A stretch of DNA of 64,000 nt, taken from assembly GCA_017428325.1 (NCBI GenBank), contig JAFRRA010000002.1, positions 372,001-436,000 of the forward strand, read 5' to 3'. Below the pieces are notes generated by a model. That model was not told the origin of the DNA. It searched no databases and was given only the letters and a program-made list of their open reading frames with translations. Both the position numbers and the translations under genes were made by a program. The stretch is from Bacteroidales bacterium. GTDB lineage: Bacteria; Bacteroidota; Bacteroidia; Bacteroidales; UBA932. Of this stretch, positions 2,516 through 61,714 are shown piece by piece. Numbering within the stretch: position 1 is the stretch's first letter; every line of letters starts with the position of its first letter.

Positions 2516-2537
2516 TTGAGAATTCATCTCAGCGATT

Positions 2538-3911
2538 ATGGCATTCAGAACAATTACAGCCCTTTTATTCTTTCTTCTCACTTTTATTCCGGCGTTTTCC
2601 CAGGAGAGGGAAGATGTCATTAGGCAGTCGGACGGTTACCAGTGGCCGACCGACGAGGCTGTGCTCCGGAAACTGGACAGATGGCAGGACCTGAAGTTCG
2701 GTGTTCTGATGCACTGGGGAATCTATTCCGTTCCCGGTATCATAGAATCCTGGAGCATCTGTAACGAGGATTGGATAAGAAGGCCGGAAGGATCTGTTTA
2801 CGAGGACTACAAGAAGTGGTACTGGGGGCTCAGCGATGAGTTTGACCCGGTGAAATTCAATCCGGAGCAATGGGCCGAGGTCTTCTCCCGCGCCGGAATG
2901 AAGTATATGATCTTCACTACCAAGCACCACGACGGCTTCTGCATGTTCGATTCTGAATACTCCGATTACGGCATTGCCCACGGTCCATTCAAGGATAATC
3001 CCAAGAAGGATATTGCAAAATATGTATTTGAAGCCTTCCGAGGCAAAGGCTTTATGGTTGGAGCATACTTTTCCAAGCCGGACTGGCATCACAAGGGCTT
3101 CTGGAATCCTTACTACGCCACACCGAACCGCCATCCGAACTATGACATCAAGAAGCATCCTGACTGGTGGCAGAGTTACGTTACATACACTCAGAATCAG
3201 CTAAATGAACTTACCGGCGGCAGATACGGAAAACTGGACATCCTCTGGCTGGACGGCGGCTGGATTACCGGAGATGCCGTTGGAATCAACGAGATACTCC
3301 CTGATGCCAGAAAGGTAAGCCCTGGTCTGATTTGCGTGGACCGCACCATCAAAGGCCCCAACGAAAACTATCAGACTCCAGAACAGTCAATTCCCAAAAC
3401 TCAGATCAATCATCCGTGGGAAAGCTGCATCACTCTTACTGACAGCTGGGGCTGGGTTCCTAACGCTGGTTTCAAATCCTCAAGGAAAGTAATAGGCATT
3501 CTTGCAGAAATTACCGCTAAGGGAGGTTGCCTGGTTCTTGGTGTCGGACCTACTCCTGAAGGCCTTATAGAAGATGCAGCCATCCCGATTCTGGAGGGGA
3601 TAGGGGAATGGCTTTCCCGCTGTGGAAAAGCCATCTATTCCACAAGGACTATAGAAGATTACAACCAGGGAAAAATCTGGTTCACAAGGTCTAAGGACAG
3701 AAAAACTGTCTATGCGGTCTATGCTCTTGAAGACGGAGAAACTCTTCCTGAATCAATATCCTGGAACGGTAATCTTCCTAAAGGCAAAGTAACTCTCCTT
3801 AACACAGGCAAGACTGTAAAAGCCAAAATCAAGGACAGTGTTGTTACAATTACGCTTCCAAGGAATATCGGGCAGGAACCGTTGGCTTTTTTGTATAACT
3901 TTGATTATTGA
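2538..3911 (+). CDS. Alpha-L-fucosidase, GH29, secreted
   Basis: A 457-residue protein with a signal peptide (about residues 1-21, ending in AFSQ). The GH29 catalytic barrel shows HWG at 59-61, TKHHDGF around 128-134, and the strand LDILWLDGGW, whose Asp239 is the expected nucleophile. A small beta domain follows after about residue 375. It hydrolyses alpha-linked fucose from host or plant glycans, most likely in the periplasm. It is not next to a SusC/SusD pair, so it is not part of an obvious polysaccharide utilisation locus. The ATG follows a -7 element and lacks a Shine-Dalgarno site. A CTCAGCGAT word lies just before the start and another inside the gene at 2829. Confidence 0.93.
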   Translation: MAFRTITALLFFLLTFIPAFSQEREDVIRQSDGYQWPTDEAVLRKLDRWQDLKFGVLMHWGIYSVPGIIESWSICNEDWIRRPEGSVYEDYKKWYWGLSDEFDPVKFNPEQWAEVFSRAGMKYMIFTTKHHDGFCMFDSEYSDYGIAHGPFKDNPKKDIAKYVFEAFRGKGFMVGAYFSKPDWHHKGFWNPYYATPNRHPNYDIKKHPDWWQSYVTYTQNQLNELTGGRYGKLDILWLDGGWITGDAVGINEILPDARKVSPGLICVDRTIKGPNENYQTPEQSIPKTQINHPWESCITLTDSWGWVPNAGFKSSRKVIGILAEITAKGGCLVLGVGPTPEGLIEDAAIPILEGIGEWLSRCGKAIYSTRTIEDYNQGKIWFTRSKDRKTVYAVYALEDGETLPESISWNGNLPKGKVTLLNTGKTVKAKIKDSVVTITLPRNIGQEPLAFLYNFDY

Positions 3912-3940
3912 TATTTGTTGCACTTTAAAAGAATCCGAAT

Positions 3941-5434
3941 ATGAAAGCTTTAGCTGTAACCGTAGCGTTGATGTCTTTTCTGCTGATTAATGAAGGGACA
4001 TATGCGCAAGTCACTCCGGTAAGCAACGCCGCCTGTGCAGAATGCGGAGGAGTAGGGGCACACAAGCCATCCTGCCGCCATTACGTAGCTCCAAACAATG
4101 ACTCTGAAAGCTCATCGCAGAGCAATACATTAAAGCCTAATGTCCGCCAGTCTACTAAAGGTGATGAGCCTTATACAGACAGCGATATCTTTTCCTCAGT
4201 TGAGGGCAAGCCTCTGACTAACAAGGAGTACTGGAGTATATTGATGGATGCCTGCACAGAGTGCGGAGCCAGGAACAACCATTCGCACACGCCGGATTGT
4301 GTTATCGGCAGAAGCTATAAATGGTATAAAGAGTATTCCGAACAAGGCAAAAAGTGGGATGCCATCCGTATGAGGGACAATATTGTCCAATTGAAACTCA
4401 ACACGGCAAAAGGAAAGGCCATGCTCGCCGCAATGCGCAACCCTTCCGGCACCAAACCTTCAACCACCACAACCAGTTCGGCATCCAAACCAGCCACTAA
4501 TACATCAACAAATACCAGCACGAGTCTGAAGGACTATGCCCCGGCACCGGAAAAGCCGAAACCGGCTGTGGGCAACCCTGTTATGCCACGCCCGATAATG
4601 GTACGCACTCCTGAGTTTTCCGGAATAAACGAGCACAGCATCGTCTATGACAAACCTCAAAGCATAGACGGAGAGCATCCTTGGGGAACGGTGGATATGA
4701 ATGCTTTCCGCCAAAGCCAGAAAGGCGGCTGGAGGGTCTTCGCCGATTATGACATTGAGCGTTACACCAATACCCCTAATGGCGTTGTAATTCTGGGTAA
4801 ACGCCAGCCTGACGGACATATCCTGTGGATGTGGTTGTCTTTTGACAAGGATACCGGGAAATATCGGGCGTATGAGAGTGAGAATGAAGAAGAAGACCGG
4901 AGCGGCAAAAAGGTGGCGCTTAAAGATATCCGTTTCGAAGCAGAAGGAGAAATCCTCGTAAAAGAGTATTCGGATGGCTATAAAAGAGTTACCAATGTCT
5001 TTGGGAATTATATTGCATCCGGATACAATATCAAAGTTCTTCCTATGAAGGTTGACGGGCACCGTATCATAGCACACGGTCAGGATCCAACCAGAGGAAA
5101 ACTCGCAAATGATATCTGGGTTTATGACGATACGGGAAAACTCATCGCCGCTGGTGAAGAACTTGAATATTTCGACGATGCCATTATCGCCCGCTCCAAG
5201 GGATTTGCAACTTTATATAACTGGAAAGGCCAGAGCATCTATTTTGACAAGGGTGGCTGGACATCAAACTATGCGGATGAAATACAGGCTTTCACCAGCG
5301 ACAAAGGACGCTATTATGTGATCAAGGTCAAGGAAGGACGATATGCTCTGGAAACCCAGGACTTCCGCCCTGTAGGAGGCTTCTACTCAACCGCCCAGGA
5401 AGCTCACGATGCCTGGAACAGGCTTGTGCCGTGA
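3941..5434 (+). CDS. Secreted protein with duplicated Cys/His motifs, unknown function
   Basis: I do not recognise this 497-residue protein. It has a signal peptide (residues 1-23, ending in TYAQ). Two copies of a possible metal-binding motif follow: C32-x2-C35-x5-H41-x3-C45 and C105-x2-C108-x7-H116-x3-C120. Next is a Ser/Thr/Pro-rich linker (about 165-205), then about 270 residues rich in Trp, Tyr and Asp with repeated short beta-strand patterns, which suggests a beta-propeller-like or WG-repeat-like fold. The motifs recall short zinc knuckles, but no function follows. Its last 31 bases overlap the 3' end of cutC on the other strand. Confidence 0.8.
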   Translation: MKALAVTVALMSFLLINEGTYAQVTPVSNAACAECGGVGAHKPSCRHYVAPNNDSESSSQSNTLKPNVRQSTKGDEPYTDSDIFSSVEGKPLTNKEYWSILMDACTECGARNNHSHTPDCVIGRSYKWYKEYSEQGKKWDAIRMRDNIVQLKLNTAKGKAMLAAMRNPSGTKPSTTTTSSASKPATNTSTNTSTSLKDYAPAPEKPKPAVGNPVMPRPIMVRTPEFSGINEHSIVYDKPQSIDGEHPWGTVDMNAFRQSQKGGWRVFADYDIERYTNTPNGVVILGKRQPDGHILWMWLSFDKDTGKYRAYESENEEEDRSGKKVALKDIRFEAEGEILVKEYSDGYKRVTNVFGNYIASGYNIKVLPMKVDGHRIIAHGQDPTRGKLANDIWVYDDTGKLIAAGEELEYFDDAIIARSKGFATLYNWKGQSIYFDKGGWTSNYADEIQAFTSDKGRYYVIKVKEGRYALETQDFRPVGGFYSTAQEAHDAWNRLVP

Positions 5435-6036
5435 AATTGAGGGGCCTTGGAATCTATGGCTATCTGCTTGAGATTCTGAGGCCTTATTCCTTTTCCTGCA
5501 ATAATTGTTATTCTTCCGGCTGCCTGTTCTACCAGACGGGCAATGTTGAACCTTCCTGCAAATGCATCTTCCATATTTCCGGAAGTGAGAAGATGGGTGC
5601 AGCCCAGTGAAATGATATCTTCCAGTGCCTTTGACGGATTTGCAACCTGGTCAAAAGCCCTGTGGAAAGTAACCGGTTTTCCGCCCACCTCAGCCATCAG
5701 TCTTTTCATCGCTGAGATATCAACCTCATTTTCAGGCTTCAGGCATCCGAATATAAATCCGTTTATTCCCGTTTTCTTGTAAGAGCGGATATCCTCGATC
5801 ATCTGCAGTATTTCTTCTTCAGAATAGACAAAGTTTCCTCCCCGGGGACGGATCATCACGTTTACGGGAATCGCTGAGGTGGAAAGAACTTTCTTCACAA
5901 GAGAAAGGGACGGGGTAACTCCGCCAATGGCTATATCCTCGCACAGCTCTATCCTGTCTGCACCACAGGCGCAGGCTCTTTTAACCTCCTCAAGGCTTGT
6001 GCAGCAGCTTTCCAGATATAGTTTCTCCTTGCTCAT
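5404..6036 (-). CDS. cutC: CutC family protein
   Basis: A 210-residue TIM-barrel protein of the CutC family. Typical segments are LESCCTSLEEV, GADRIELCEDIAIGGVTPS, VNVMIRPRGGNF, KPVTFHRAFDQ and LTSGN. CutC was named for copper homeostasis, but its biochemical activity is still unclear. Family members are usually near 240-250 residues. This copy stops right after QFHGTS and lacks the last stretch, and its 3' end runs 31 bases into the convergent gene, so the C-terminus looks shortened. The -7 element lies only four bases before the ATG, which implies a leaderless message. Two ATCGCTGAG words lie inside the gene (5708, 5870). Confidence 0.9.
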   Translation of the reverse strand: MSKEKLYLESCCTSLEEVKRACACGADRIELCEDIAIGGVTPSLSLVKKVLSTSAIPVNVMIRPRGGNFVYSEEEILQMIEDIRSYKKTGINGFIFGCLKPENEVDISAMKRLMAEVGGKPVTFHRAFDQVANPSKALEDIISLGCTHLLTSGNMEDAFAGRFNIARLVEQAAGRITIIAGKGIRPQNLKQIAIDSKAPQFHGTSLFQAS

Positions 6037-6040
6037 GTCA

Positions 6041-6048
6041 CAAAAGTA
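6041..6048 (-). promoter_or_regulatory. -7 promoter element for cutC
   Basis: Read on the minus strand this is TACTTTTG, a match to TAnnTTTG, ending four bases before the cutC ATG. The transcript would start at or within a few bases of the start codon. Confidence 0.5.
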
Positions 6049-6075: not shown

Positions 6076-6080
6076 CATAT

Positions 6081-8423
6081 ATGAGAAAGATTCTTGCTTT
6101 AGTTTCAACGATAGCTGTTTTTTCTGTTGTTTTCGAGTCCTGTACAAAAGAGAAGGATGTACGGTATTATACAGATTTCCTTCTGAAAAATATGAGCAGT
6201 GCGGATAGTATAATCTATACGGAACAATTCTGGGAAGAGAATGTTGCAAAGACGCTTCAGGTCAGGGAGAATATGGGGTGGAATGTTTCAGAGAGGGATT
6301 TCAAATACTTTGTCCTTCCATTGAGGGTTAACAACGAGAATCTTGATGATTTCCGTACAGAGTGGGCGGATTCGCTGTGCAGAAGGGTAAAGGGAATGAG
6401 TATGGAGCAGGCCATCCTTGAGATTAACCACTGGTGCCACGAGATGGCTACCTACGCACCGTCCGATGCCAGGACATCTTCCCCGCTTGCCACAATCCGC
6501 AAAGGTCTTGGGAGATGCGGTGAGGAATCCGTGCTTGCGGTTTCCGCATTGAGAGCCGTAGGAATCCCTGCCCGCCAGGTTTATACTCCGCGATGGGCTC
6601 ACACAGACGATAACCACGCCTGGGTTGAGGCAATCTCCGATGACGGCAAATGGCATTTCATCGGTGCCTGCGAGCCTGAGCCTAAGCTGGATATGGCCTG
6701 GTTCAACGCTCCTGTATCCAGGGCGATGCTTCTTCACACCAAGGTATTCGGAAAAGACTATGACGGTCCGGAAGAAGTCATACAGAGAACTCCTGCGTAC
6801 ACGGAAATAAATGTAACCGCCAATTATGTACCTGTTGTAAAACGTGTTGTGGAAGTTGTGGATGAAGCCGGAAATCCTGTGGAAGGCGCTGAGGTATCTT
6901 TCAAAATCTACAATTATGCCGAGTTCTATACGGTTGCCACATATTTAACGGATTCCAAAGGCTACGCTTCCCTTACTACCGGCAATGGTGATATGCTGAT
7001 AGAGGCATCGAGGGGAGATAAGTTCGGACTTTCCAAGGCATCTGGTGACCCTCTGGTAAAGATTGAGCTCAACAAGGAAATAGGTCAGAGATATTCCTTT
7101 GACTTTGATATAGTTCCTCCGGTTGAAGATCCAATTCCATCTTCTGCGACCAAAAAGGAAATCGCCGAGAATAAAAAGAGGTTTGAACTTGAGAACCAGA
7201 TGAGGGAGGCCAGGCCTAAAGGAAACCAGGCTGTGATAGAGGCTTTCTGGAAATTTGCGGACAGCCTCGGTGGCATTCAGCGATATTCCGATATTCTCGA
7301 GTCTTTGTCAGTTAAAGACATGAATGATGTTTCTTTAGCTGTTCTCACGGATGCCTATCATCATTCAGAGGCTCCGTTCAGCAAGTTCATGCATTGCCCG
7401 AGAGTGGAGCTGGAGTTCCTGTATCCATATTTTGATGAAATAGGGCAGGGCATTGGCATCAAATCTCCAGCAGATGCGGCCAAATGGACGGATGAGAATA
7501 TTAGGACGGATACTGTCGGGAATCCGCAGCATCTAAGAATTCCTCCGGTCTTTGTCTGGAGAAGCCGAGTTGCGGACCCGTTGTCAAAAGATATTTTCTT
7601 TGTGGCTCTTTGCAGGGCAAAGGGTTTTGAAGCCAGGATTGACGAGGCAACAGGCAAGGCCCAGTACAGGGAAGGAGAAGAATGGTTAGACCTTCATACT
7701 GGAGTGAAAGCTCCGCAAGGAATGCTCTTGGGAACCTGTGAAAATATTCCGGATCCGCTGTATTACAAGCACTTCTCAATTTCTAAGGTCGACGGAAGCA
7801 AGGCGGTACAACTGGCTCTGGATGAGAATATCGACATTCCTTTCAGCAAAATGTTCGCACCAACTTATCCGCTGGACTGCGGTTATTATATGCTGACAAG
7901 CGGAAACAGGATGGCGGACGGAAGCGTTCTGGCGCATATCGATTTCTTCCCGATAGAAGAGAATAAGACTACCACCATAGAGCTGGTAATCAGAAAGGAT
8001 GACCAGAAGATTTCCGTAATTGGAAGTATGGATCCGGAAAAGAAGTTCCTGAAGGACGGGGAAGAAGTTTCTATTCTTAGTCAGACCGGCCGGGGATATT
8101 TCCTGGTTGCCTGCCTTGGTTACAAGGACGAGCCTACGACCCATGCTGTCAGGCAGCTGACTTCAATCTCTGAACTGATAAATGACAAAGGTCTTAAGGT
8201 TGTTGCTTTAGGCCAGGCGCAGCCTAATGGCATCAGTGGTCTTGTAAAGGGTGAGGACAAGGATGATTCGGTCAGGAAAATGCTTTCCGATGGTTGCAAG
8301 AAAGATGGCAGGACTCTGCCTGTAATTGCTCTCTGCGACAGTTTCGGCCGGATTGTGTACTATTCCCAGGGTTACAACACCTCCCTCGCCGAGGAAATTA
8401 AAAAAGTCTTATTACAAATATAA
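6081..8423 (+). CDS. Transglutaminase-like lipoprotein
   Basis: I place the start at the ATG at 6081 because it gives a lipoprotein signal (MRKILAL...FESC, lipidated Cys21). The upstream in-frame extension has no such signal and crosses the promoter. The 780-residue product has a transglutaminase-like core with a catalytic Cys in GRCGEES and a His in DDNHAWVEA. After it come a carboxypeptidase-regulatory-like beta domain (VVDEAGNPVEGAEVSFKIY), a helical region, further beta domains and a thioredoxin-like C-terminal part (VVALGQAQPN, PVIALCDSFGRIVYY). Bacteroidota encode many such surface or periplasmic proteins; whether they act as proteases or cross-linking enzymes is not established. Confidence 0.82.
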   Translation: MRKILALVSTIAVFSVVFESCTKEKDVRYYTDFLLKNMSSADSIIYTEQFWEENVAKTLQVRENMGWNVSERDFKYFVLPLRVNNENLDDFRTEWADSLCRRVKGMSMEQAILEINHWCHEMATYAPSDARTSSPLATIRKGLGRCGEESVLAVSALRAVGIPARQVYTPRWAHTDDNHAWVEAISDDGKWHFIGACEPEPKLDMAWFNAPVSRAMLLHTKVFGKDYDGPEEVIQRTPAYTEINVTANYVPVVKRVVEVVDEAGNPVEGAEVSFKIYNYAEFYTVATYLTDSKGYASLTTGNGDMLIEASRGDKFGLSKASGDPLVKIELNKEIGQRYSFDFDIVPPVEDPIPSSATKKEIAENKKRFELENQMREARPKGNQAVIEAFWKFADSLGGIQRYSDILESLSVKDMNDVSLAVLTDAYHHSEAPFSKFMHCPRVELEFLYPYFDEIGQGIGIKSPADAAKWTDENIRTDTVGNPQHLRIPPVFVWRSRVADPLSKDIFFVALCRAKGFEARIDEATGKAQYREGEEWLDLHTGVKAPQGMLLGTCENIPDPLYYKHFSISKVDGSKAVQLALDENIDIPFSKMFAPTYPLDCGYYMLTSGNRMADGSVLAHIDFFPIEENKTTTIELVIRKDDQKISVIGSMDPEKKFLKDGEEVSILSQTGRGYFLVACLGYKDEPTTHAVRQLTSISELINDKGLKVVALGQAQPNGISGLVKGEDKDDSVRKMLSDGCKKDGRTLPVIALCDSFGRIVYYSQGYNTSLAEEIKKVLLQI

Positions 8424-8702: not shown

Positions 8703-9449
8703 ATGGATACGGCGCCAATTTTCAACAAAATCAGCGGAGATTACGACCGGTTTAACCACCTCTTTTCTTTGTCTATAGACAAAAGATGGAGGAGGGGGGC
8801 TACCCGTGTGGCTTCTCGGATAGCCCGTAAGATGGCTTTTTCAAGAGGCTGCCAGGTGTCTGATATCAAGGTGGTTGATCTTGCCTGTGGAACAGGGGAC
8901 CTGAGCATTATGCTGGCAAAGAGGGGGCTAACTGTAACAGGTTTGGACATATCGGAAGGAATGCTGGAAAAAGGCAGGGAGAAGGTGGAGAAACTCTGGA
9001 AAGGAGAGTTTTCAAGATATCCTAAACCGGTGCTAACTTTGGGAGACGGGGCTGACATGAGCTTTGAGGACGGATCTGTAGACATAATCACAATCGCTTA
9101 CGGAATAAGGAATTTCGATGACAGGCCTTCATCGCTGAGAGAGATAATAAGAGTGCTTTCTCCCGGCGGGGCGCTGCTGATATTGGAATTCGGAGAGCCG
9201 AAGAACGCTCTGTTCAGACTGGTTTACAAGCCTTACTTCCGTCACATTATGCCAGGAATGGCATCTGCGCTTACGCTTGGAAAAGATGCCGCCGCGTACA
9301 GATACTTCATATCTTCAGTTGAAAAATTTCCTAAATTTGAAAGGTTTTGCAAAGAACTCTCGCAGGCCGGTTTCCAGTTTGTAGGGCATAAATGCCAGAC
9401 TGGAGGGATATCGGTGCTTTACAGGGCTTTCAAATCGGTTGGGAAATGA
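8703..9449 (+). CDS. menG: Demethylmenaquinone methyltransferase (UbiE/MenG)
   Basis: A 248-residue class I SAM-dependent methyltransferase. It shows the family start FNKISGDYDRFNHLFS, the SAM-binding loop VVDLACGTGDLS, and GLDISEGML, AYGIRNFDD and LEFGEP. It methylates demethylmenaquinone in the last step of menaquinone synthesis, at the membrane surface. The other men genes are not in the window. Its stop overlaps the start of the cardiolipin synthase gene (ATGA), so the two membrane-related enzymes are probably translated together. It carries an ATCGCTGAG word at 9131. Confidence 0.93.
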   Translation: MDTAPIFNKISGDYDRFNHLFSLSIDKRWRRGATRVASRIARKMAFSRGCQVSDIKVVDLACGTGDLSIMLAKRGLTVTGLDISEGMLEKGREKVEKLWKGEFSRYPKPVLTLGDGADMSFEDGSVDIITIAYGIRNFDDRPSSLREIIRVLSPGGALLILEFGEPKNALFRLVYKPYFRHIMPGMASALTLGKDAAAYRYFISSVEKFPKFERFCKELSQAGFQFVGHKCQTGGISVLYRAFKSVGK

Positions 9450-10939
9450 TACTCTTCTCTTGGCATACATTCTGGCCTGTATTGTCGGCTGTTCTATACG
9501 CGATGAATATGTGCATCGCCGTGTATGCTTCTGTTTCAATGATCCTAAGGAAGCAGGACCCTGTCAAGACACTTTCCTGGACGGCTGTAATGATTCTTCT
9601 GCCATATCTCGGTATCATACTGTATCTCACCTTCGGGCAGAATTACCGCAAGAAGAAGATGTTTTCCAGAAAAGGCCTGGCGGACCTGAAGACCAGGCAG
9701 GAAATCTGCGCAGACGAGAAAGACGCTCTGGATTCTTTTCCGGAATTCCTTTCCGGAGATATGGCGCCGTTTAAGAAACTTATCTATCAGAACCTGAGGA
9801 ACAGCTATTCCCTGATTGATTTCAACAAGGACATAGAGTTCTTTTTTGACGGGAAATCTGCCCTGGACTCTATGTATAATACAATGCTTAAGGCTGAGCA
9901 TCATATTCATCTCCAGACATATATACTTGAGGATGACCGCATAGGGAACAAGTTCATATCCCTGCTTATGGAGAAGGCCAGGAGCGGGGTGGAGGTCCGT
10001 CTGATGTACGATGATGTGGGAAGCAGCGGCATAGGCAAGTCCCTGGTCCGGCAGATGAAAAATGCCGGGATAGAGGTTCTTGTCTTTTCTCCGGTGCATT
10101 TCTTCATGCCGATGAGCAAGGTCAATTACCGCAATCACCGAAAGATACTTGTGGTGGACGGGGATACGGGCTTCCTGGGCGGAGTCAACATCGCTGACAG
10201 GTATTATTACGGCACGGAAAGCGGACCTTGGCGGGACACCCAGATAAAGATTGCCGGAGAGAGCGTGTTCAATCTTCAGGCAAGTTTCCTTCTGGACCGT
10301 TTCTTTGTGCTCAACCACGGACTGCACAACACCAGAAAGTATTACCCGAACATCAAGATCGGGAAGAAAGATTTGTCGGGGCCAAACAAGGATGTCTATT
10401 CCCAGATTATTTCCTCAGGACCGGACAGCGACTGGGCTGGGATTATGCAGTGCTTTTTCACAGCCATAACCAGCGCTCAGTCAAGAATATACATAACTAC
10501 GCCATATTTTACTCCAAACTCTACAATTCTCAATGCAGTAAAGGTAGCCGCGCTTGGAAACATAGACGTAAGGCTTATGATTCCACAGAGGGGAGACAGC
10601 CGTATGGCACATTACAGCACCCGATCCTACATAACCGAACTTCTGGAAGCCGGGGTGAAGATTTACCTGTTCAAACAGGGATTCAACCATTCCAAGACAA
10701 TCAGCGTGGACGGGAAGATGGCCATAATAGGCTCGGCGAATATGGATCAGAGGAGTTTTGAGCATAACTTTGAAGTTATGGGTGTGCTGTATGACAGGGG
10801 ATGCTCGGCGACAGTGGAAAAGCGCTTTATGGAAGATTTGACTTTGTGCGAGAAAGTTGAACTTGGTTCCTGGAAGAAAAGAAGCCTGGGGCAGAAGATC
10901 GGCGAGAGCTTCTTCAGACTGCTTTCTCCATTGATTTAG
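9446..10939 (+). CDS. cls: Cardiolipin synthase, phospholipase D type
   Basis: I start the gene at the ATG at 9446, which overlaps the menG stop as ATGA and gives a normal N-terminus; the longer in-frame extension only reads through menG. The 497-residue protein has two N-terminal transmembrane segments (PLDc_N type, including ILLPYLGIILYLTFG). Two HKD catalytic motifs follow: NHRKILVVDG with GGVNIADRY, and NHSKTISVDG with GSANMDQRS. It condenses phosphatidylglycerol, or PG with another phospholipid, to cardiolipin at the inner membrane. Length and motif layout match bacterial Cls. Confidence 0.93.
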   Translation: MILFSWHTFWPVLSAVLYAMNMCIAVYASVSMILRKQDPVKTLSWTAVMILLPYLGIILYLTFGQNYRKKKMFSRKGLADLKTRQEICADEKDALDSFPEFLSGDMAPFKKLIYQNLRNSYSLIDFNKDIEFFFDGKSALDSMYNTMLKAEHHIHLQTYILEDDRIGNKFISLLMEKARSGVEVRLMYDDVGSSGIGKSLVRQMKNAGIEVLVFSPVHFFMPMSKVNYRNHRKILVVDGDTGFLGGVNIADRYYYGTESGPWRDTQIKIAGESVFNLQASFLLDRFFVLNHGLHNTRKYYPNIKIGKKDLSGPNKDVYSQIISSGPDSDWAGIMQCFFTAITSAQSRIYITTPYFTPNSTILNAVKVAALGNIDVRLMIPQRGDSRMAHYSTRSYITELLEAGVKIYLFKQGFNHSKTISVDGKMAIIGSANMDQRSFEHNFEVMGVLYDRGCSATVEKRFMEDLTLCEKVELGSWKKRSLGQKIGESFFRLLSPLI

Positions 10940-10963: not shown

Positions 10964-11908
10964 ATGAAAAAGAATTACGTTGCAGGTGTCGATATCGGAG
11001 GCCAGACAGCCAAGATCGGCATCGTTGACAGAAAGGGCAATATACTTGCCAGGAAGGTAATCAGCACCAAGTACAAGGATGCAGGAAAGTTTATCGGTTT
11101 GCTCAGCGACAGCATCCGCGAGATGACGGCAGACATAGGTCTGGACAACATCAACGGAGTGGGAGTGGGGGCTCCTGACGGAAACTACTACACCGGAGAC
11201 ATCGTAGAGGCAACTAACCTTATGTGGGCGAAGGGCAAGACCGTCCACTTTGCCAATGAACTGAGCAAAATGCTTGGTGGCCTGAAGGTTACCATTACCA
11301 ACGATGCCAATGCCGCTGCCATCGGAGAGATGAAGTACGGTGCCGCAAAAGGGATGAAGAACTTCATAGAGATTACCCTGGGAACCGGAGTCGGCAGCGG
11401 AATCGTCATAGACGGAAAGCTGGTCTATGGCCACGACGGATTTGCCGGAGAACTTGGCCATACCTGCGCAGTCAAGGGCGGTCGGGACTGCGGATGTGGC
11501 CAGAAGGGCTGCCTGGAGTGCTATTGCTCGGCTACCGGCGTTGCCCGCACGGCAGTGGAGATGCTCGCCAAGACCAAAACCAAGAGCCTGCTTCACGGAA
11601 TGAAGGACATCACATCCAAGGACGTGTTCGACGCAGCGGAAAAGGGAGACAAGCTGGCAATCAAGATATTCGAATATACCGGAAAGATTATGGGGGAGAA
11701 GTTTGCGGACTTCATCCCGTTCTCCGCTCCGGAGGCAATCATCCTCTTCGGAGGCCTTACTCACGCCAAGGACTACTTTATGAAGTATCTGGTGGACACT
11801 ATGAACGAGAAGGTCGTATTTCTGTGGAAGGGCAAGGTAAAGGTGCTCGTCAGTGCCCTCAACGAGTCTGACGCCGCCATTTTGGGAGCATCCGCCCTTG
11901 CCTGGTAA
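10964..11908 (+). CDS. ROK family sugar kinase, probable glucokinase
   Basis: A 314-residue ROK kinase. The N-terminus has the phosphate-binding GVDIGGQTAKIGIVD. TLGTGVGSGIVIDG, the catalytic-region NDANAAA and the ROK zinc motif (GH, then CGCGQKGCLE) are all present. The lack of an N-terminal helix-turn-helix marks it as a kinase rather than a repressor. In Bacteroidota such enzymes serve as ATP glucokinases or N-acetylhexosamine kinases; glucose is the default guess. It is 12 bases upstream of the hydroxyacid dehydrogenase gene. Confidence 0.88.
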   Translation: MKKNYVAGVDIGGQTAKIGIVDRKGNILARKVISTKYKDAGKFIGLLSDSIREMTADIGLDNINGVGVGAPDGNYYTGDIVEATNLMWAKGKTVHFANELSKMLGGLKVTITNDANAAAIGEMKYGAAKGMKNFIEITLGTGVGSGIVIDGKLVYGHDGFAGELGHTCAVKGGRDCGCGQKGCLECYCSATGVARTAVEMLAKTKTKSLLHGMKDITSKDVFDAAEKGDKLAIKIFEYTGKIMGEKFADFIPFSAPEAIILFGGLTHAKDYFMKYLVDTMNEKVVFLWKGKVKVLVSALNESDAAILGASALAW

Positions 11909-11920
11909 AATCTCCGCGAT

Positions 11921-12856
11921 ATGAAGATAGTTTTTCTGGATGCCGCTTCTATCGGCGAAGATGTTTCCCTGGAACCCATCGCGAGACTGGGTGAACTCGT
12001 GACCTATCCGTTTACTTCACCGGAGCAGGTGGAGGAAAGGATAGGAGACTGCGATGTGCTTATAATCAACAAGGTGCAGATCCGCAAGCGGCAGATTGAC
12101 TGGGGCAGGAATCTCAAACTCATCTGCATTGCCGCCACCGGAACCAACAATGTGGACCTGGAATATGCCGCAAGCAAGGGCATTCCGGTAAAGAATGTTG
12201 CTGGATATTCAACGGAAAGCGTTGCGCAGGTAACAATGGCTATGCTTCTTGGCCTTTCCTGCCATACAGCATATTACGATAACAAGGTCAAGAGCGGAGA
12301 CTACACAAGAGGAAATCTTGTATCCGATGTTACCAGAAAATGGGGGGAACTTAAAGGCCAGAGACTTGGAATCATAGGTCTTGGAACAATCGGCAGCAGG
12401 GTTGCAGCGTTGGCAGAAGGCTTCGGAATGGAGGTCTGCTATTATGCCACAAGCGGAAAGCCGCATTCAGACAAGTATCAGAGCCTCAGCCTGGACGAAC
12501 TCCTTCAAACCTCGGATTTCATCTCCGTCCATGCTCCGTTGAACGAGAGAACCCTCAACCTCATTACCTATGACAAGTTGAAGCTTTGCAAGAAAACGGC
12601 AAAGGTCATCAACATAGGGCGAGGCGGAATCATCAACGAGGAAGACCTTGTGAAAGCACTGAACGACAATCTCATTGAAGGAATCGGCATAGACGTCTTC
12701 TCAAAGGAGCCTATCCCGGAAGACTCTCCGTACCTGAAGATTGAAGACAAGACAAAAGCGATACTTCTGCCTCACATCGGCTGGACCGGCAGGGAGGCCC
12801 GAATTCTCCTCGTTGCCAAGATCGCTGAGAATATAAAAACCGAGGGGATAGGATAG
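11921..12856 (+). CDS. D-2-hydroxyacid dehydrogenase (glycerate dehydrogenase-like)
   Basis: A 311-residue NAD-dependent D-2-hydroxyacid dehydrogenase with nucleotide loop GIIGLGTIGSRVA and catalytic residues Arg234 (NIGRGG), Glu263 (SKEP) and His285 (LPHIGW). Similarity in length and in the ATGTNNVD segment points to hydroxypyruvate/glycerate dehydrogenase rather than SerA, since there is no ACT domain. It probably reduces hydroxypyruvate or glyoxylate, or a related 2-keto acid. It lies directly after the ROK kinase and is likely cotranscribed. ATCGCTGAG (12821) encodes Ile-Ala-Glu near the C-terminus. Confidence 0.87.
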   Translation: MKIVFLDAASIGEDVSLEPIARLGELVTYPFTSPEQVEERIGDCDVLIINKVQIRKRQIDWGRNLKLICIAATGTNNVDLEYAASKGIPVKNVAGYSTESVAQVTMAMLLGLSCHTAYYDNKVKSGDYTRGNLVSDVTRKWGELKGQRLGIIGLGTIGSRVAALAEGFGMEVCYYATSGKPHSDKYQSLSLDELLQTSDFISVHAPLNERTLNLITYDKLKLCKKTAKVINIGRGGIINEEDLVKALNDNLIEGIGIDVFSKEPIPEDSPYLKIEDKTKAILLPHIGWTGREARILLVAKIAENIKTEGIG

Positions 12857-15411: not shown

Positions 15412-18556
<3,145 letters not shown>

Positions 18557-38898: not shown

Positions 38899-38923
38899 AT
38901 CGCTGAGAATAAAGCTCAGCGAT
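38899..38923. repeat. Head-to-head pair of the 9-mer forming a hairpin
   Basis: ATCGCTGAG at 38899-38907 and CTCAGCGAT at 38915-38923, separated by AATAAAG, form a perfect 9-bp stem just after the ppdK stop. It precedes a separate T-rich terminator. Confidence 0.85.
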
Positions 38924-44377: not shown

Positions 44378-44500
44378 ATCGCAGAACATAATATCCTTGC
44401 GAATTTACGCATAAAAACCATAGGTTTTGCATATCCCGCATTGCTGGCAGGGAGAATTTATCAACCATGCCGTGTTGAAAAATAATCGGCGAGAAATACT

Positions 44501-53962: not shown

Positions 53963-54828
53963 TATAACTTCTTCCATTTTAAGCTGCCTTGATTGCGGAT
54001 GAGGGGGTATTGATCAAGGGGCATTAGAGCGATGTCTCCTTGTTGCGTTTCCCGTTGAAGTAAGGACCATTGGCGGGGATTGATTCGCCTGAATGTCTGT
54101 GGATCAATGTGATATACCACAGGAGGGGTGCTGCCTGCTAGTTCGAATCCGAGTTTATGGTATACATCTCCTTCTCCCCACTCATTATCCGAGTAACTCA
54201 TAATCTCAAAGCCCTCATCATCGTGCTTAAAACGGACGTCACGGACAAATTGTTCCAGGATTTTGCCCATTCCGCCGGCAATTCGGACATCAGGCAGGCT
54301 TGCATACCGTGTCCACTCATATTTTCTGCTGGGTTCCCCCTCAGGTTGCAAGGAACAGACAGTTTTATCAGTATGTGGCTGGTAGGTCTGCTGGAACTGA
54401 GCGGCGGCAACGATATCGTCTTTATAAAGAAGTAGATAGCCAGTCTGCCTGTTAAGATATCCGTAAGTATGGAACGAATCCAGGAACTTCTTGATTTTAT
54501 CTTTGAAAGCGGTTGGGCTGAGGCCAAAATCCTTGCAGTTGATTTCTGAAACCACTCTGCAGAGCCGGGCGTGGATTCTTCTGAACTTTCCCAGCCGTGC
54601 CATCAGTCTCTGCGATGTTACGCTCCGGGAGCATCTCCACCGGTCTTCATACAGAAACACGGTGCTTTGCTGTTCCCTACATCCCTCAATAATGTACGAT
54701 GGGAGAGGAACGAGCATCAGATCAAGATGTTTGGAAGGGAAACGCAAAATATTGCCATCATCTTCAAATTCTATCCCATGGCTTCTGAGAAAGCCGATTA
54801 CTTCGTCTCTGAAGGATAAAATTTGCAT
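53959..54828 (-). CDS. Hypothetical protein with GNAT-like middle region
   Basis: I cannot name this 289-residue protein (start at the ATG at 54828; the in-frame TTG upstream lies in the tRNA-Lys promoter). The N-terminal part (FRDEVIGFLRSHGIEFEDD) and the basic middle (about 75-120) are followed by a region with acetyltransferase-like order: LLLYKDDIVAAAQF, RIAGGMGKILEQFVRD, IMSYSDNEWGEGDVYHKLGFE. The SYSDNEWGEGDVYHKLGF pattern recalls proteins linked to phage homing endonucleases (SYADRRWS...NLYEKLGF), from memory. It lies between a flippase gene and tRNA-Lys, a typical spot for acquired genes. Confidence 0.65.
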   Translation of the reverse strand: MQILSFRDEVIGFLRSHGIEFEDDGNILRFPSKHLDLMLVPLPSYIIEGCREQQSTVFLYEDRWRCSRSVTSQRLMARLGKFRRIHARLCRVVSEINCKDFGLSPTAFKDKIKKFLDSFHTYGYLNRQTGYLLLYKDDIVAAAQFQQTYQPHTDKTVCSLQPEGEPSRKYEWTRYASLPDVRIAGGMGKILEQFVRDVRFKHDDEGFEIMSYSDNEWGEGDVYHKLGFELAGSTPPVVYHIDPQTFRRINPRQWSLLQRETQQGDIALMPLDQYPLIRNQGSLKWKKLY

Positions 54829-54986: not shown

Positions 54987-57581
54987 TTAGGCAGAGGTGG
55001 CTGGCGGAGGGGTTTTGGATTTGACTGTGATCTGCGAGTCCGCGTAGCTTAACTCGATTGTTTCTCCCACCTGGAACTTGCCGGATATTATGGCCTCAGA
55101 TACAGGATCCTCAACAAGTTTCTGGATGGCACGCTTGAGCGGACGGGCACCGTATTGAGGGTCATAACCTTCCTCGGCGATGAACTTCTTGGCGGCTGCG
55201 GTGATCTTAAGCTTGTAGCCAATCTGTTCCACTCTTGAGTACAGGCCCTTGAGCTCTATGTCAATAATTTTCTCGATATCCTCACGGGTGAGCGGGTTGA
55301 ACAGGATCTGCTCGTCCAGACGGTTCAGGAACTCCGGCGAGAAGTGGTTCTTCAGAGCCTTGTCTATGATGCTCTTGTTCTTGCTTACGATATCCCTCTT
55401 TGTAACAGTGGCATAGCCGACTCCCTGACCGAAATCCTTGAGCTCCTTGGTTCCGATATTGGAAGTAAGTATGAGGATTGTGTTGCGGAAATCGATATTG
55501 CGGCCGTTGCTGTCCGTCAGCCTTCCCTCGTCCAGAACCTGGAGAAGCAGGTTGAAGATATCCGGATGGGCCTTTTCTATCTCATCCAGAAGGACCACAC
55601 TGTATGGCTTGCGGCGTACTTTCTCGGAAAGTTCACCACCCTCGTTGTAGCCGATATAGCCTGGAGGCGCACCTATGAGGCGGCTTACTGAGAACTTCTC
55701 CATAAACTCGCTCATGTCTATGCGTATAAGAGACTCTTCAGTGTCGAACAGGTTACGTGCCAGAACCTTGGCGAGCTGGGTCTTACCAACGCCTGTAGGG
55801 CCAAGGAACAGGAATGTGCCGATAGGCTTCCCCGGATCCTTAAGGCCTGCACGGTTACGGAGGATTGCACGGGTAACCTTTTCTATGGCCTCATCTTGCC
55901 CGATTACGCTCTCCTTGAGGGTCTTGCTCATATTCAGCAAGCGGTTGCTCTCGCTCTGGGCCAGCTTCTGGATAGGGATCTTGGTAGTCTGGCTAAGAAC
56001 AGCCTCGATATCCTCCTTGTCCACGACAACAGGATTGTTCTCCATCTTGGCCCTCCATTTCTTGCGGGCGTTCTCAAGCTCTTCCTCCTTTGTCTTGAGC
56101 ATATCGCGGAGCATAGAAGCCTGCTTGAAATTCTTCTCCCTGATGGCCTTGCTCTTTTCGTTCTGGAGAATGGTCACGGCACTCTCCAGCTCAGACAGGC
56201 TCTTTGGCACCTTGAGGTTCTTGATGTGGGCGCGGCTGCCGGCCTCGTCCATTATATCCACAGCCTTGTCAGGCAGGCAGCGGTCTGATATGTATCTCTG
56301 ACTCAGTGATATGCAGCTCTTTAAGGCATCATCCGTATAGGTGACGTTATGATGGGCCTCGTAGCGGGGCTTGATGTTCTGAAGTATCAGAAGAGTGTCG
56401 TCGAAATCAGTAGGCTCCACCATAACTTTCTGGAAACGCCTTTCCAGGGCGCCGTCCTTCTCAATTACCTCTCTGAACTCGTCCAGGGTAGTGGCGCCGA
56501 TGCACTGGATTTCTCCGCGTGCGAGTGCCGGTTTGAGCATGTTTGCGGCATCCAGGCTTCCGGAAGCGCCTCCGGCACCCACCAGCGTATGGAGCTCATC
56601 GATGAATAGTATAACATCGTCATTCTTTTTCAGTTCGTTCAGGATGGCCTTCATCCTTTCCTCAAACTGGCCCCTGTACTTGGTGCCGGCCACGATGCTG
56701 CCGATGTCCAGGGAGATTATCCTCTTGTCACTCAACGAATAAGGTACCTCCTTGTGGGCAATCTTGTTGGCCAGTCCCTCGGCGATGGCGCTCTTTCCAA
56801 CACCAGGCTCACCGATAAGGATAGGGTTGTTCTTCTTGCGGCGTCCGAGGATCTGGGCAACGCGGTCGATTTCCTTGTCACGGGCAACTACCGGGTCAAG
56901 TTCCTCCATAGCGGCAGCCCTTGTAAGGTCAAATCCGAAGTTGTCCAGTACCGGAGTCTTGCTTGAAGGTGCGCCGGACGCAGCCTGGCGTATGCCAGCT
57001 TCGCCTTGAACCTTGTCTGAAAAACTGTCTGCGCTCTGACCTTCAGGCCTGTCTTCGGAATCTCCGCTTGGCGCCGGACCGGAGGATGAAATGCCTCCCA
57101 AAAGATCATCCGCAGAGCCAGGCCTTCCGCCCAGTCCCTCCTGAGGGCCTTCCTGCGGCTCAATATTCTTGACCGTGGCATAGTGGATGCCCTGCATATG
57201 AAGATAGTCAATGGCAGCGGTCCCCGTGCCCCTCATGATAGCCAGCAGCAGATGCAGGCTTCCCGGAACGGCAGACTTAAGGCTTCTGGCCTCCAGGTAC
57301 ATTAGTTTCAGGGCCGTGCTTGCGGCAGAAGACAGGGCGATCTCGTTGGCCTTGCTCTCTGGAATTGGCTCTCCCTTGCCGATGGTCTCTTCAATGACCT
57401 TCTTCATGTCGGAAACGTCAATGCCCAGCTCTAGCAACCTTGTTACGGCGGCATTGTCCGAGTGCCTTATCATTCCGAGGACAAGATGGTCCGTAGTTAG
57501 AACGTAGCTTCCGAGTCTTATTGCCTCTTCCTTGGAGTAGGCGATAATCGCGTTGAGTATTTCAGGGAAATCTATATACAT
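54987..57581 (-). CDS. clpC: ClpC-type AAA+ chaperone of the Clp protease
   Basis: An 864-residue class I Clp/Hsp100 ATPase with an N-terminal Clp_N double repeat (about 1-145), a Gly/Ser/Pro/Asp-rich low-complexity linker (about 145-215), and D1 with Walker [13 protein letters not shown]-type coiled segment at about 430-480 ([24 protein letters not shown]) marks ClpC. D2 has GPTGVGKT and a ClpP-contact region near GIGYATV-type GVGYATV. It unfolds substrates for ClpP. The long acidic linker is unusual compared with Firmicute ClpC. It is divergent from gyrA across 223 bases. Confidence 0.93.
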
Positions 57582-57804: not shown

Positions 57805-60372
57805 ATGGACGAGAACAAGGATTTGAACGGCACACCGGTGCCAGAGGAGGAGGGCGGTTTCAACCACGGGATTATCCAGAGGATAAACATAGAGGATCAG
57901 ATGAAGACAGCCTACATCGATTACTCTATGAGCGTGATTGTTTCCCGTGCTCTTCCTGATGTAAGAGACGGACTGAAGCCTGTTCACCGCAGGATTCTTT
58001 ACGATATGGGAAAGGAGCTGAACATCACCTCCGGCGGCCAGACAAAGAAATCTGCCCGCGTGGTCGGAGACGTTCTTGGTAAGTTCCACCCGCACGGAGA
58101 CAGCAGCGTATATGACGCTATGGTACGCCTTGCCCAGACCTGGAGCATGCGCTACCCGCTGGTCTTCGGACAGGGAAACTTCGGCTCTATAGGAGGAGAC
58201 CCTCCTGCAGCTCAGCGATATACCGAGGTCAAGCTTATGCCGGCCGGCGAGGAAGTCCTCAAGGACCTTGAGAAGGATACCGTGGATTTCGTGCCGAACT
58301 TTGACGGCGAATATATGGAGCCGACAGTGCTCCCTGCAAAGCTTCCGCTTCTTCTGATAAACGGAACAAACGGTATCGCCGTGGGTATGGCCACAATGAT
58401 GCCGCCTCACAATCTCACCGAGGTCTGCGACGGCATAATAGCATACATAGACAATCCTGACATAGACACTGAAGGCCTGATGCAGTACATCAAGGGCCCT
58501 GATTTCCCTACGGGAGGCACCATTATGGGCCTTCAGGGCATCAAGGACGCGTACGAGACAGGAAAGGGCAGGATAATTCTCCGAGGAACCACAGACATCG
58601 AGGTTAACGAAAAGAGCGGAAGGGAGACCATCGTCATTAAGGAAATCCCTTATATGGTCAACAAGAACGAGCTCATCAAGCAGATCTCAATGCTCGTGGA
58701 CAACAAGAAGTTAGAGGACATCGTCTATGTGAACGACGAATCTGACCGCAAATCAGGAATGCGTCTGGTTGTCAAACTCAAGGTCGGCGCCGTGAGCCAG
58801 GTTGTGGTCAACAACCTCTACAAGCATACAGAGCTCCAGAGCAGCTTTGCCGTAAACAATGTGGCTCTGGTGGATGGCCGTCCGCGTCAGCTCAACCTTA
58901 AGCAACTGATCAAGTATTATGTTCGCCACCGTCACGATGTGGTTGTCCGCCGCCTGAAGTTTGATTTGAAGAAAGCTCAGGACCGTGTACACATCCTTGA
59001 AGGCCTGTGCATTGCACTCGACCACGTGGATGAGGTGATCAAGATAATCCGCGAGAGCGAGACTGTGGAAGCCGCCAAGGCAGCCCTCTGCGCAAGGTAC
59101 GGCCTGACTGAGATCCAGGCAGCCGCCATCGTTGAAATCCGTCTCCGCCAGCTGGCCAAACTGGAGAAGAAGAAGCTGGAAGACGAGCTTGCAGAGCTCC
59201 GCGCCCTGATTGACAAGATCAACACCATCCTCGGCGATGTAAAACTCCAGATGGGCATCATCAAGGAGGAACTCGAGGAAGTGAAGAAGAAGTTCGGCGA
59301 CGTTCGCCGCACCCAGATACATCCGGACGAGAGCGAGTTCAACTACGAGGACATCATCGCGGATGACGATATGGTGATCACCATATCCCACCTGGGATAC
59401 ATCAAGCGTACTCCTCTTACCGAATACCGCCTCCAGAATCGCGGAGGAAAGGGAAGCCGCGGCTCCGCCACAAGAGACGAGGACTTCATCGAGCATATCT
59501 ATGTGGCCAACATGCACTCCACGATGCTGTTCTTCACCAACAGCGGCAAGTGCTTCTGGCTCAAGGTATACCAGATACCGGAAGGCACCAAGACAACCAA
59601 GGGAAGGGCCATCCAGAACGTTCTGAGCATAGCCCAGGGAGAGAAGGTTTGCGCCTATATCAACGTAAACCGCCTCAAGGACGAGGAATACATCAACTCC
59701 CATTATGTTGTCCTGGCCACCAAGAAGGGTGTCATCAAGAAGACCACCCTGGAGGCTTACTCCCGTCCTAGGACCAACGGCGTGATTGCCGTGAACGTCA
59801 GGGAAGGGGACGAGCTCATCGAGGCAATCCTCACGGACGGCAACAACCAGATAATGCTCGCCGCCAAGGAAGGCAAGTGCGTAAGGTTCGATGAATCAAA
59901 GGTTCGCGCCATCGGACGTACCGGTACTGGAGTCCGCGGAATCGAGCTGGAAGAGGGCAACGAGGTCATCGGTATGATTTGTGTAGAACCGGGTACAACC
60001 GAAAAGACCATCCTGGTAGTCAGCGAGCACGGCTTCGGCAAACGCAGCCAGCTGGACGACTACAGGGTTACCAGCCGCGGATGCAAGGGCGTAAAGACCA
60101 TCAACATCACCGAGAAGACTGGCAAGCTTATTGCACTGAAGGCTGTAACTGACGAGAACGACCTTATGATCATCAACCGCTCCGGCATTGTCATAAGGGT
60201 AGCGGCATCCCTGATAAAGGTAGCCGGAAGAGCCACCCAGGGAGTCAAGCTCATCAACATAAAGGATACGGACAGTATCGCAGCCGTTTGCGCCGTACCA
60301 AAGAGCGAAGACCTTAAGGCTCAGGAGGCTGCAGAGAACGAGGATGACGAGCCAACCCAGCCACAGGAATAA
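57805..60372 (+). CDS. gyrA: DNA gyrase subunit A
   Basis: An 855-residue type IIA topoisomerase A subunit. It shows SYAM-type start [24 protein letters not shown] (in parts), [18 protein letters not shown], the active-site Arg138-Tyr139 and the C-terminal pinwheel with six blade repeats. The GyrA box-like [10 protein letters not shown] separates gyrase from ParC. The residue before the active Arg-Tyr is normally Met; here it is Gln137, encoded by CAG inside a CTCAGCGAT word (58211-58219). Quinolone-region Ser and Asp are wild type. It is followed by a TPR gene and has a canonical promoter and strong RBS. Confidence 0.96.
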
Positions 60373-60409
60373 CACACAGAAACAAATTATAAACTTAACA
60401 AATACAACA

Positions 60410-61714
60410 ATGAAAAGATTTTTTATCACATTAGCTGTAGCACTGATGATCGTTCCGACCGTCTTTGCACAATCCGGTGATAGCGGAAAGGCTCTCAAGG
60501 CTCTTGCCAAGGCTAAGGATGCTATCGCCAAGAAGCAGGATGCAGCCACCTGGATCAAGCTGGGTAACGCCTATGCAGACTGCTACGACGCTCCTATCAA
60601 CGGCCTCTTCCTCAAGAATTCCATGGATCAGACCAACCTCCTTCTCAAGGGCCAGGTACGTCTCGGCATGGAGCAGAAGGAAATCAACGGCAAGACCTAT
60701 AATGTTGTAACCTACATCGACAAGGAGGTTTACTATACAGAGAACGGAGTTCTCATGGGCTACAAGGTTATCAAGCCTCTGACAGAGGAGAATCCTCTGG
60801 AGAAATGCCTGGACGCATACGACAAGGCAGTTGAGAAAGGTGCTGCCGACAAGGATATGAACCCTCTCTTTGTTGCTCTTGCCAAGAGACATTGGGATGC
60901 CGCTATGGTTGCCTACAATATGCTGGACTACAACGATGCTTCCAAGGAGTTTGAGCAGAGTTACCTCATCAACTCCAGACCAGCTGTAGAGGCTTTGGAC
61001 ACCAATGCCCTTATCTACGCCGGTATTTCTTCCGTCCTCGGAAAAGACAGCAAAAGGTCAATCTCTCTCTTCGAGAAATGCGTTGACCTGAACATTGCAG
61101 ACGGAGACATCATCGCAATGCTTGCAGACAGCTACAAGGCCCAGGGAGACACTACCAAGTGCAAGGAGATCCTTGGCAAGGGATTCGAGAGATTCCCGAC
61201 CAACCAGGGTATTCTGGTTTCCCTGATTAACACCTATCTGGAGACCAACGACGATCCTGAGAAGATTATCGTAGTCCTCAAGAAGGCACAGGAGAACGAG
61301 CCAACCAACGCTTCCCTTGTTTACGCTGAGGGTAACCTCTACAAGAACATGAAGCAGTACGACAAGTGCATCGAGCTCTACCGCAAGGCTGCCGAGCTTA
61401 ATCCTACATACGTATTTGCTCCTTACAATGAGGGTGATACCTACTATCAGATGGCCCTTGACCTCCAGGACAAGGCTTCCGCAGAACCTGACGACAACAA
61501 GTTCATGGAACTCAACAACCAGATGAACGACTGCCTGAAGAAGGCTATAGAGCCTTTCGAGAGGGCTTTCTCAATCGCTGAGGATCCTGAAATCAAGCGT
61601 GGTTGCGCCGAGTACCTGAAGCAGATCTATTTCCGTTTCCGCGACGAGAAACCTGAGTATCAGGCCAACTACGACAAGTATCACAAGTTCCTTGAGGAGA
61701 CTGCTGCAAACTAG
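60410..61714 (+). CDS. Periplasmic TPR protein
   Basis: I start at MKRFFITLAVAL (60410), which gives a signal peptide ending in VFAQ at residue 21; the in-frame upstream ATG lies inside gyrA. The 434-residue protein has several tetratricopeptide hairpins (YDKAVEKGAADKDMNPLF, MLADSYKAQGDTTKCKEIL, YAEGNLYKNMKQYDKCIELYRKAAELNP). No catalytic domain. It follows gyrA by 37 bases and is probably cotranscribed. It likely acts as an envelope scaffold. Codon use is biased toward C-ending codons, as in highly expressed genes. ATCGCTGAG at 61574 encodes Ile-Ala-Glu. Confidence 0.88.
   Translation: MKRFFITLAVALMIVPTVFAQSGDSGKALKALAKAKDAIAKKQDAATWIKLGNAYADCYDAPINGLFLKNSMDQTNLLLKGQVRLGMEQKEINGKTYNVVTYIDKEVYYTENGVLMGYKVIKPLTEENPLEKCLDAYDKAVEKGAADKDMNPLFVALAKRHWDAAMVAYNMLDYNDASKEFEQSYLINSRPAVEALDTNALIYAGISSVLGKDSKRSISLFEKCVDLNIADGDIIAMLADSYKAQGDTTKCKEILGKGFERFPTNQGILVSLINTYLETNDDPEKIIVVLKKAQENEPTNASLVYAEGNLYKNMKQYDKCIELYRKAAELNPTYVFAPYNEGDTYYQMALDLQDKASAEPDDNKFMELNNQMNDCLKKAIEPFERAFSIAEDPEIKRGCAEYLKQIYFRFRDEKPEYQANYDKYHKFLEETAAN

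Follow-up and report, generated by a model that had tools for sequence, protein, structure and literature searches.

The window, i.e., the whole 64,000-nucleotide stretch analysed here, from an uncultured Bacteroidales of the rumen, holds ordinary genes, among them guaA, rmlA, rmlD, xerD-like, hydF-like and UbiE-like genes, the gene of phosphoribosylformylglycinamidine synthase and others, in and between which a 9-base word, ATCGCTGAG, recurs far above chance. The best matches of its GuaA protein come from uncultured Bacteroidales, some of them recovered from the rumen and omasum of water buffalo and yak. An earlier note on this DNA had counted 19 copies of the word (10 in one orientation and 9 in the other) against about 0.5 expected. 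The count was nearly right, since we find 20 exact copies, 9 on the plus and 11 on the minus strand, spanning positions 2528 to 61582, and the expectation holds, with a mean of 0.51 and a largest value of 3 among 100 dinucleotide shuffles. The exact copies are listed below with their surroundings, open reading frames (ORFs) and other gene calls being those of our own longest-ORF routine.

Exact copies of ATCGCTGAG in the window (coordinates, strand, context)
2528..2536, minus, between genes
2829..2837, minus, antisense in ORF 2538-3911 (Leu-Ser-Asp)
5708..5716, plus, antisense in ORF 5404-6036 (CutC-like, below the family cut-off)
5870..5878, plus, antisense in ORF 5404-6036 (CutC-like, below the family cut-off)
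9131..9139, plus, sense frame 2 of ORF 8703-9449 (UbiE/MenG-like)
12821..12829, plus, sense (Ile-Ala-Glu) in ORF 11921-12856 (2-hydroxyacid dehydrogenase)
24471..24479, minus, where two candidate ORFs overlap on opposite strands
24816..24824, minus, gene edge, at the start of xerD-like ORF 24823-25737
25727..25735, minus, 3' end of xerD-like ORF 24823-25737
26357..26365, plus, antisense in ORF 25685-26533 (PhzF-like)
27658..27666, minus, sense (Ile-Ala-Glu) in guaA
35246..35254, minus, antisense in hydF-like ORF 34850-36061
38899..38907, plus, left arm of an inverted pair, 11 bases past the pyruvate phosphate dikinase gene
38915..38923, minus, right arm of the inverted pair; 7-base loop, fold of -14.3 kcal/mol
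40553..40561, minus, sense (Ile-Ala-Glu) in ORF 40529-44389 (phosphoribosylformylglycinamidine synthase)
48686..48694, minus, antisense in rmlA, opposite pair with the variant at 48700
50190..50198, plus, sense in rmlD
50505..50513, plus, sense in rmlD
58211..58219, minus, antisense in ORF 57805-60372
61574..61582, plus, sense in ORF 60344-61714

A degenerate motif under selection as DNA

Over the 1,946,911 bases of the genome to which the window belongs (hereafter G000), ATCGCTGAG occurs 338 times (185/153) and the reversed word not once. In a sample of 569,198 bases of the same genome, 107 copies were observed where Markov models of orders 2 and 3 predict 3.1 and 4.6, and those of orders 4, 5 and 6 predict 8.1, 18.7 and 60, the high orders absorbing ATCGCTGAG itself and thus inflating the expectation. 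The over-representation advanced by the earlier note is genuine. Its description as a 9-mer, however, covers only one form of a longer and degenerate motif. The one-mismatch neighbours of ATCGCTGAG define an A (or G) at position 1, followed by TCGC, a free base (T>C>G>A) and GAG, and ATCGCTGAG is the commonest form of the resulting RTCGCNGAG, of which the window has 52 copies. This motif occurs 363 times in the 569 kb sample against 22 expected (order-2 Markov), and its reversal, used as a control, 20 times against 21.5. The remaining sites of the window are as follows.

Variant RTCGCNGAG copies in the window (coordinates, strand, variant)
1192..1200, minus, ATCGCGGAG
4114..4122, plus, ATCGCAGAG
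6586..6594, minus, ATCGCGGAG
7161..7169, plus, ATCGCCGAG
8331..8339, minus, GTCGCAGAG
10804..10812, minus, GTCGCCGAG
11102..11110, minus, GTCGCTGAG
11912..11920, minus, ATCGCGGAG
16240..16248, minus, ATCGCGGAG
21660..21668, minus, GTCGCTGAG
23316..23324, plus, GTCGCTGAG
25478..25486, plus, ATCGCAGAG
27928..27936, plus, ATCGCCGAG
29587..29595, plus, ATCGCGGAG
35074..35082, plus, GTCGCTGAG
35948..35956, plus, GTCGCTGAG
42344..42352, minus, ATCGCCGAG
42728..42736, plus, ATCGCGGAG
42794..42802, minus, ATCGCCGAG
44273..44281, plus, ATCGCCGAG
45547..45555, minus, GTCGCTGAG
46974..46982, plus, GTCGCCGAG
48454..48462, minus, ATCGCCGAG
48700..48708, plus, GTCGCCGAG, opposite pair with the exact copy at 48686
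54608..54616, minus, ATCGCAGAG
55173..55181, minus, ATCGCCGAG
56103..56111, plus, ATCGCGGAG
56778..56786, minus, ATCGCCGAG
59230..59238, minus, ATCGCCGAG
59438..59446, plus, ATCGCGGAG
62554..62562, plus, GTCGCTGAG
62857..62865, minus, ATCGCAGAG

It had also been claimed that selection acts here on the DNA rather than on a protein motif, and that codon bias is insufficient to account for all the reading frames involved. Both claims are borne out by shuffling of synonymous codons, which leaves a mean of 1.4 and a maximum of 4 copies (200 shuffles) in place of the 17 genic ATCGCTGAG of the window, and a mean of 63.1 and a maximum of 82 (30 shuffles) in place of the 344 genic RTCGCNGAG of the G000 sample, as well as by the spread of the copies over frame and strand classes. 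The exact word lies above the shuffle mean in five of the six classes of the 569 kb sample (sense frame 1 has 0 copies against 0.0), and RTCGCNGAG occupies all six, every one of them above its shuffle mean. Moreover, of 50 exact copies counted over the first 204 kb, 48 have independent flanks. Because of these shuffles and independent flanks, neither codon usage nor repeats explain the word.

A second enriched word, CATAGAC/GTCTATG, was found 156 times against 43 in the G000 samples and 20 times against 4.2 in the sister genus (G063, loci L277-L278); the codon shuffle explains it in part (the window has 27 copies against 10.5 in the shuffles, whose maximum is 21).

Dialects of the motif across the genus

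The genus was sampled through 39 genomes, with ATCGCTGAG counted in 37 of them (without G061 and G062) and TTGTCGGGA in all, and the words of each dialect were first obtained de novo from samples. Clade-dependent forms emerge, among them RTCGCNGAG (form A, that of the window's clade), a GTCGGGA-type form represented by TTGTCGGGA (form B) and CTRTCGNGA (form CT). At least 150 copies of ATCGCTGAG are present in 11 of the 37 genomes, which carry 25 or fewer of TTGTCGGGA, and at least 90 copies of TTGTCGGGA in 11 of the 39, which carry 11 or fewer of ATCGCTGAG, so that the A and B sets do not overlap and their words are mutually exclusive. Many other genomes of the genus stand at 0.5 to 10 copies of ATCGCTGAG. 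The CT form culminates in the closed genome G034, with 1,500 copies against 93 of the reversed word, followed by G010 with 907 (85), G001 with 854 (50) and G009 with 584 (89). In A genomes it stays close to this control or somewhat higher (152 vs 154 in G000, 239 vs 146 in G026). Codon shuffling of G034 left a mean of 13.1 and a maximum of 20 copies (30 shuffles) where 211 genic ones are observed. There is no clear border between forms B and CT, with CTGTCGGGA matching both and G007, G009, G010, G012, G016, G018, G022 and G024 being high in the two alike, and some genomes hold two forms together, as seen from their ATCGCTGAG/YTATCGGGA counts (168/107 in G014, 76/203 in G013 and 52/113 in G023).

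By word counts, no strong form of the motif was found in six genomes (G008, G015, G020, G030, G035 and G062), two of which show a mild excess of TTGTCGGGA (46 vs 17 in G015, 38 vs 17 in G030), and weak forms occur in G002, G033 and G036, the samples of G033 being masked. The word GCATCTGAAC, frequent in both G015 and G030, was tried as the dialect of G015 and rejected as a clustered repeat family, found in G030 in tight groups, at spacings such as 24, 87 and 187 bases and in both orientations. In the samples of G003 (L091, L110-L112), an extra variant, ATCGTTGAA, stands beside the A dialect with 11 copies against 0.6, and is perhaps a drifting form.

In a tree built on the codons of the pyruvate phosphate dikinase gene (FastTree, without support values), which covers 30 of the 39 genomes (35 had a match), ten A genomes, all but G014, group on one branch. 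Eight of the 11 B genomes are in the tree and share another, and the CT and YTATCGGGA forms lie elsewhere in it. Dialects built on a shared core thus track phylogeny across the genus. Outside it, the counts covered 247 genomes of the order, with three further genera of the family among them, and CTRTCGNGA never exceeded about four times the reversed word (198 vs 49 at most, in G275). Samples of 20-40 kb from each of three such genera gave no strong word, at a size where weaker ones would be missed. Nothing comparable was found in 68 loci of other genera (L015-L082, 3-22 kb), where YRTCGNGA is at most about twofold enriched; in individual loci, YNRTCGGGA or RTCGCNGAG attains a four- to sixfold enrichment, based on 2 to 9 copies. 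YRTCGNGA is carried (9/1.2, 7/2.3 and 14/1.6) by L010-L012, which show 81-86% identity in GuaA. Among these surveys we also observed GTCGATGA, GTCGACGA and GTTGTCGA to be locally frequent in other Bacteroidales (L017, L018, L022, L027 and L038), which may come from codon usage or be words of another kind, and CTTGTCCA to be enriched in L061 and L077 (9 vs 0.7-0.8).

All forms in the genus share one architecture, RTCG followed by a spacer and GA, the spacer being one base in B and CT and two (CN) in A. An inspection of the flanks, as proposed by the earlier note, revealed an enrichment in A downstream of GA. At bases 3 to 6 after it, A amounts to 57, 48, 55 and 70% in G034 (265 sites), 49, 37, 39 and 48% in G000 (361 sites) and 53, 45, 41 and 48% in G032 and G003 together (92 sites). 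In the B sample (161 sites) the enrichment is limited to position 3, with 69%; G034 has upstream A as well (67% at -2). This looks like the footprint of one DNA-binding surface with a shifting specificity behind all forms. Orthologous positions, whose comparison was also proposed there, were examined in eight A-motif loci aligned to the window, which are related and hence yield non-independent comparisons: sites are retained in 55 of 101 comparisons, where matched control words give 28. The retention was 1 of 13 against about 1.5 in two loci lacking the A dialect.

Distribution along genomes and competence genes

In the closed genome of the relative G034, a 400 kb sample holds 267 copies against 2.7 expected, at a density of 1.88/kb between genes vs 0.57/kb within them, and 47 of the 53 gap sites lie between genes of the same direction, gaps that make up 18.1 of the 26.2 kb of gap sequence. 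Seven pairs of opposite copies are no more than 40 bases apart: four tight ones, located between same-direction genes, with folds of -10 to -22 kcal/mol, two loose ones, and one that falls within an ORF. In G000, the exact word is about twice as dense between genes as within them (0.39 vs 0.18/kb), and a sample of four A genomes gives 1.03 vs 0.64/kb for the motif. The single inverted pair of ATCGCTGAG described by the earlier note is confirmed at 38899/38915, between converging genes. Its claim that there is no strand skew also holds in G034, where the two strands carry 744 and 756 copies genome-wide and 138 of the 267 sampled copies are in the leading-type orientation, as approximated by the GC skew of the respective stretch.

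Two polysaccharide-synthesis regions, with glycosyltransferases, a sugar transferase, EpsG or Wzy_C, and MBOAT proteins, are poor in the motif; the density is otherwise even, with a mean and variance per 10 kb of 6.7 and 7.2 in G034 and of 6.4 and 7.8 in G000. The first of these regions, a sparse stretch of G000 (C1, about 446-486 kb), holds 3 copies in 39.9 kb where 27.1 are expected from the genome density and 15.1 after scaling for composition (P = 6e-9 and 2e-4, both post hoc, the stretch having been chosen after the gap was seen). The second, stretch L233 of G034, holds 3 in 20 kb against 13.9 and 20.4, respectively (P = 5e-4 and 2e-6, uncorrected for its choice as the lowest of 20 evenly drawn stretches). 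A scarcity of the motif in polysaccharide islands is suggested only.

With regard to the competence genes that the earlier note proposed to look for, matches to ComEC are found in 38 of the 39 genus genomes and to HHH_3 in all 39, and DprA is over the cut-off in 36 (any match in 38). A ComEA-like protein of 295 residues in G000, as well as its counterpart in G034, shows in our own reading HHH repeats and an N-terminal hydrophobic segment.

An uptake-type reading and its rivals

The abundance of the motif, its form, its dialects, its core with an A-rich tract, its strand symmetry and the intergenic excess and hairpins of G034 resemble features of uptake sequences, and sites are retained within a dialect. 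From this genomic evidence, we consider it fairly probable that the motif is an uptake-type sequence with a putative non-pilus receptor. In such a system, a putative surface or periplasmic protein would bind RTCG-(N or CN)-GA and the downstream A-rich tract on double-stranded DNA. Motif-bearing DNA would then be pulled in, pass as a single strand through ComEC, be protected by DprA and recombine. The preferential entry of same-species DNA carrying the motif would spread copies by recombination, in both orientations and in genic and intergenic places alike. A shift in receptor specificity would take the set of copies along with it, leading to one dialect per clade, and copies would decay once the specificity or the uptake itself was lost. 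Both the place of the recogniser in an uptake machine and this drive are what we infer from the genomic pattern.

Several observations weigh against this interpretation. The ATPase of type II secretion and type IV pili (T2SSE, PF00437) is over the cut-off in none of the 39 genus genomes vs 13 of 14 controls, with weak short matches below the cut-off in 30 of the 39. All six genomes without a strong motif have ComEC, DprA and HHH_3, and across the 39 genomes no difference in these three accompanies the loss of the motif, so the com genes are present but their presence is not decisive. The intergenic excess of RTCGCNGAG in G000 is slight (0.79 vs 0.63/kb), and the B sample shows none (0.38 vs 0.46/kb). 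Opposite pairs are scarce, with two in the window and four in the 569 kb of G000, and a second sparse stretch of G034, L227, contains ordinary genes, e.g., a mfd-like one. Finally, the motif includes TCG, and its centre is palindromic in some copies (RTCGCGA), features that would suit a methylase too.

Uptake sequences with a tested function are reported from Pasteurellaceae and Neisseriaceae, which use type IV pili for the process. The uptake signal sequence (USS) of Pasteurellaceae, with 1,465 copies of its 9-base core in Haemophilus influenzae, resembles our motif in core length, central CpG, A/T tracts and copy number, and its uptake is described as needing the inner core with a contribution of the tracts (PMC7811141). 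The USS is also reported to have no general orientation bias, some inverted pairs and an excess outside ORFs (PMC2346458), the last a likeness that holds for G034. Unlike the USS, the motif has a different core, splits into several dialects within one genus, lacks an accompanying pilus ATPase over the cut-off and is known from sequence alone. The DNA uptake sequences (DUS) of Neisseriaceae, recognised by ComP, are described as dialects around a short, invariant core that follow phylogeny (PMC3630211), as seen here, but in the genus the core is RTCG..GA and not CTG, the spacer length varies between dialects, the pilus ATPase is likewise below the cut-off and the receptor is putative. Since no pilus motor was found and the uptake reading comes from genomic evidence alone, we do not claim membership in the DUS or USS. 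Within Bacteroidota, a preference for its own DNA has been reported for Riemerella columbina, whose frequent k-mers, one example being A-rich, are presented as putative uptake words of untested function (PMC7965970). Our search of the open-access literature found no report of an uptake sequence in Bacteroidetes or Bacteroidales.

The nearest rival is a word akin to the highly iterated palindrome HIP1 of cyanobacteria, tied to an orphan DNA methyltransferase of clade-varying specificity and unrelated to uptake, which we regard as unlikely. HIP words are methylase-linked. They are similarly abundant and highly repeated, being low or replaced by others in exceptional species, but those named in PMC4390886 are palindromic or nearly so and GC-rich, whereas the genus motif is asymmetric, with one or two degenerate spacer bases and a one-sided A-rich tract. 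Moreover, shifts within the genus keep the RTCG..GA core, as would be expected of a mutating receptor and not of word replacement; HIP1 itself (GCGATCGC), when counted in the window, was absent. Next in plausibility, and also doubtful, comes a site bound by an abundant protein, nucleoid-associated or bending DNA globally, and maintained by selection at many positions. A fixed core flanked by an A-rich tract suits a protein-DNA interface, and the even density, whose variance per 10 kb block is near the mean, also speaks for such a site. Against it, hundreds to 1,500 sites would need to be maintained by selection inside genes, in both orientations and several reading frames, yet whole clades change or lack the motif.

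The earlier note had preferred an uptake-type word to a Chi site. Uptake is indeed the better of the two, given the absence of skew in G034, the dialects with a common core, the A-rich flanks and the intergenic excess and hairpin pairs of G034, although the missing pilus or secretion ATPase leaves it qualified. A polar site for recombination or segregation, of the Chi or FtsK orienting polar sequence (KOPS) type, would also be a short, frequent and non-palindromic word, but with the orientation bias absent from G034 and a motif that varies or is missing between species of one genus, it is very improbable. Lastly, an origin of the excess in codon usage, dipeptide usage or dispersed repeats, in line with the many copies encoding Ile-Ala-Glu or Leu-x-Asp (two frame-0 classes make up 215 of the 344 genic RTCGCNGAG), is refuted as a full explanation, as codon shuffles retain just 1.4 of 17 copies in the window and 63 of 344 in the sample, nearly all flanks are independent and intergenic copies exist.

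Returning to the uptake reading, we see evenly balanced chances for its broader version, in which Bacteroidota would possess a pilus-independent, self-recognising uptake system whose receptor may have changed specificity, including spacer length, repeatedly within one genus, with a dialect for each motif-bearing clade and an apparent loss on several branches. If true, Bacteroidota would add a further case, independent and lacking a pilus motor, and sequence-specific uptake would have evolved there with a different receptor. In addition, the series of dialects within the genus would help to find that receptor by comparison, and would give hints about the partners in DNA exchange among rumen Bacteroidales. 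Even with some other function, a motif of which our open-access search found no report in this group, present in up to 1,500 copies and changing between sister clades, would point to a strong force acting on these genomes.

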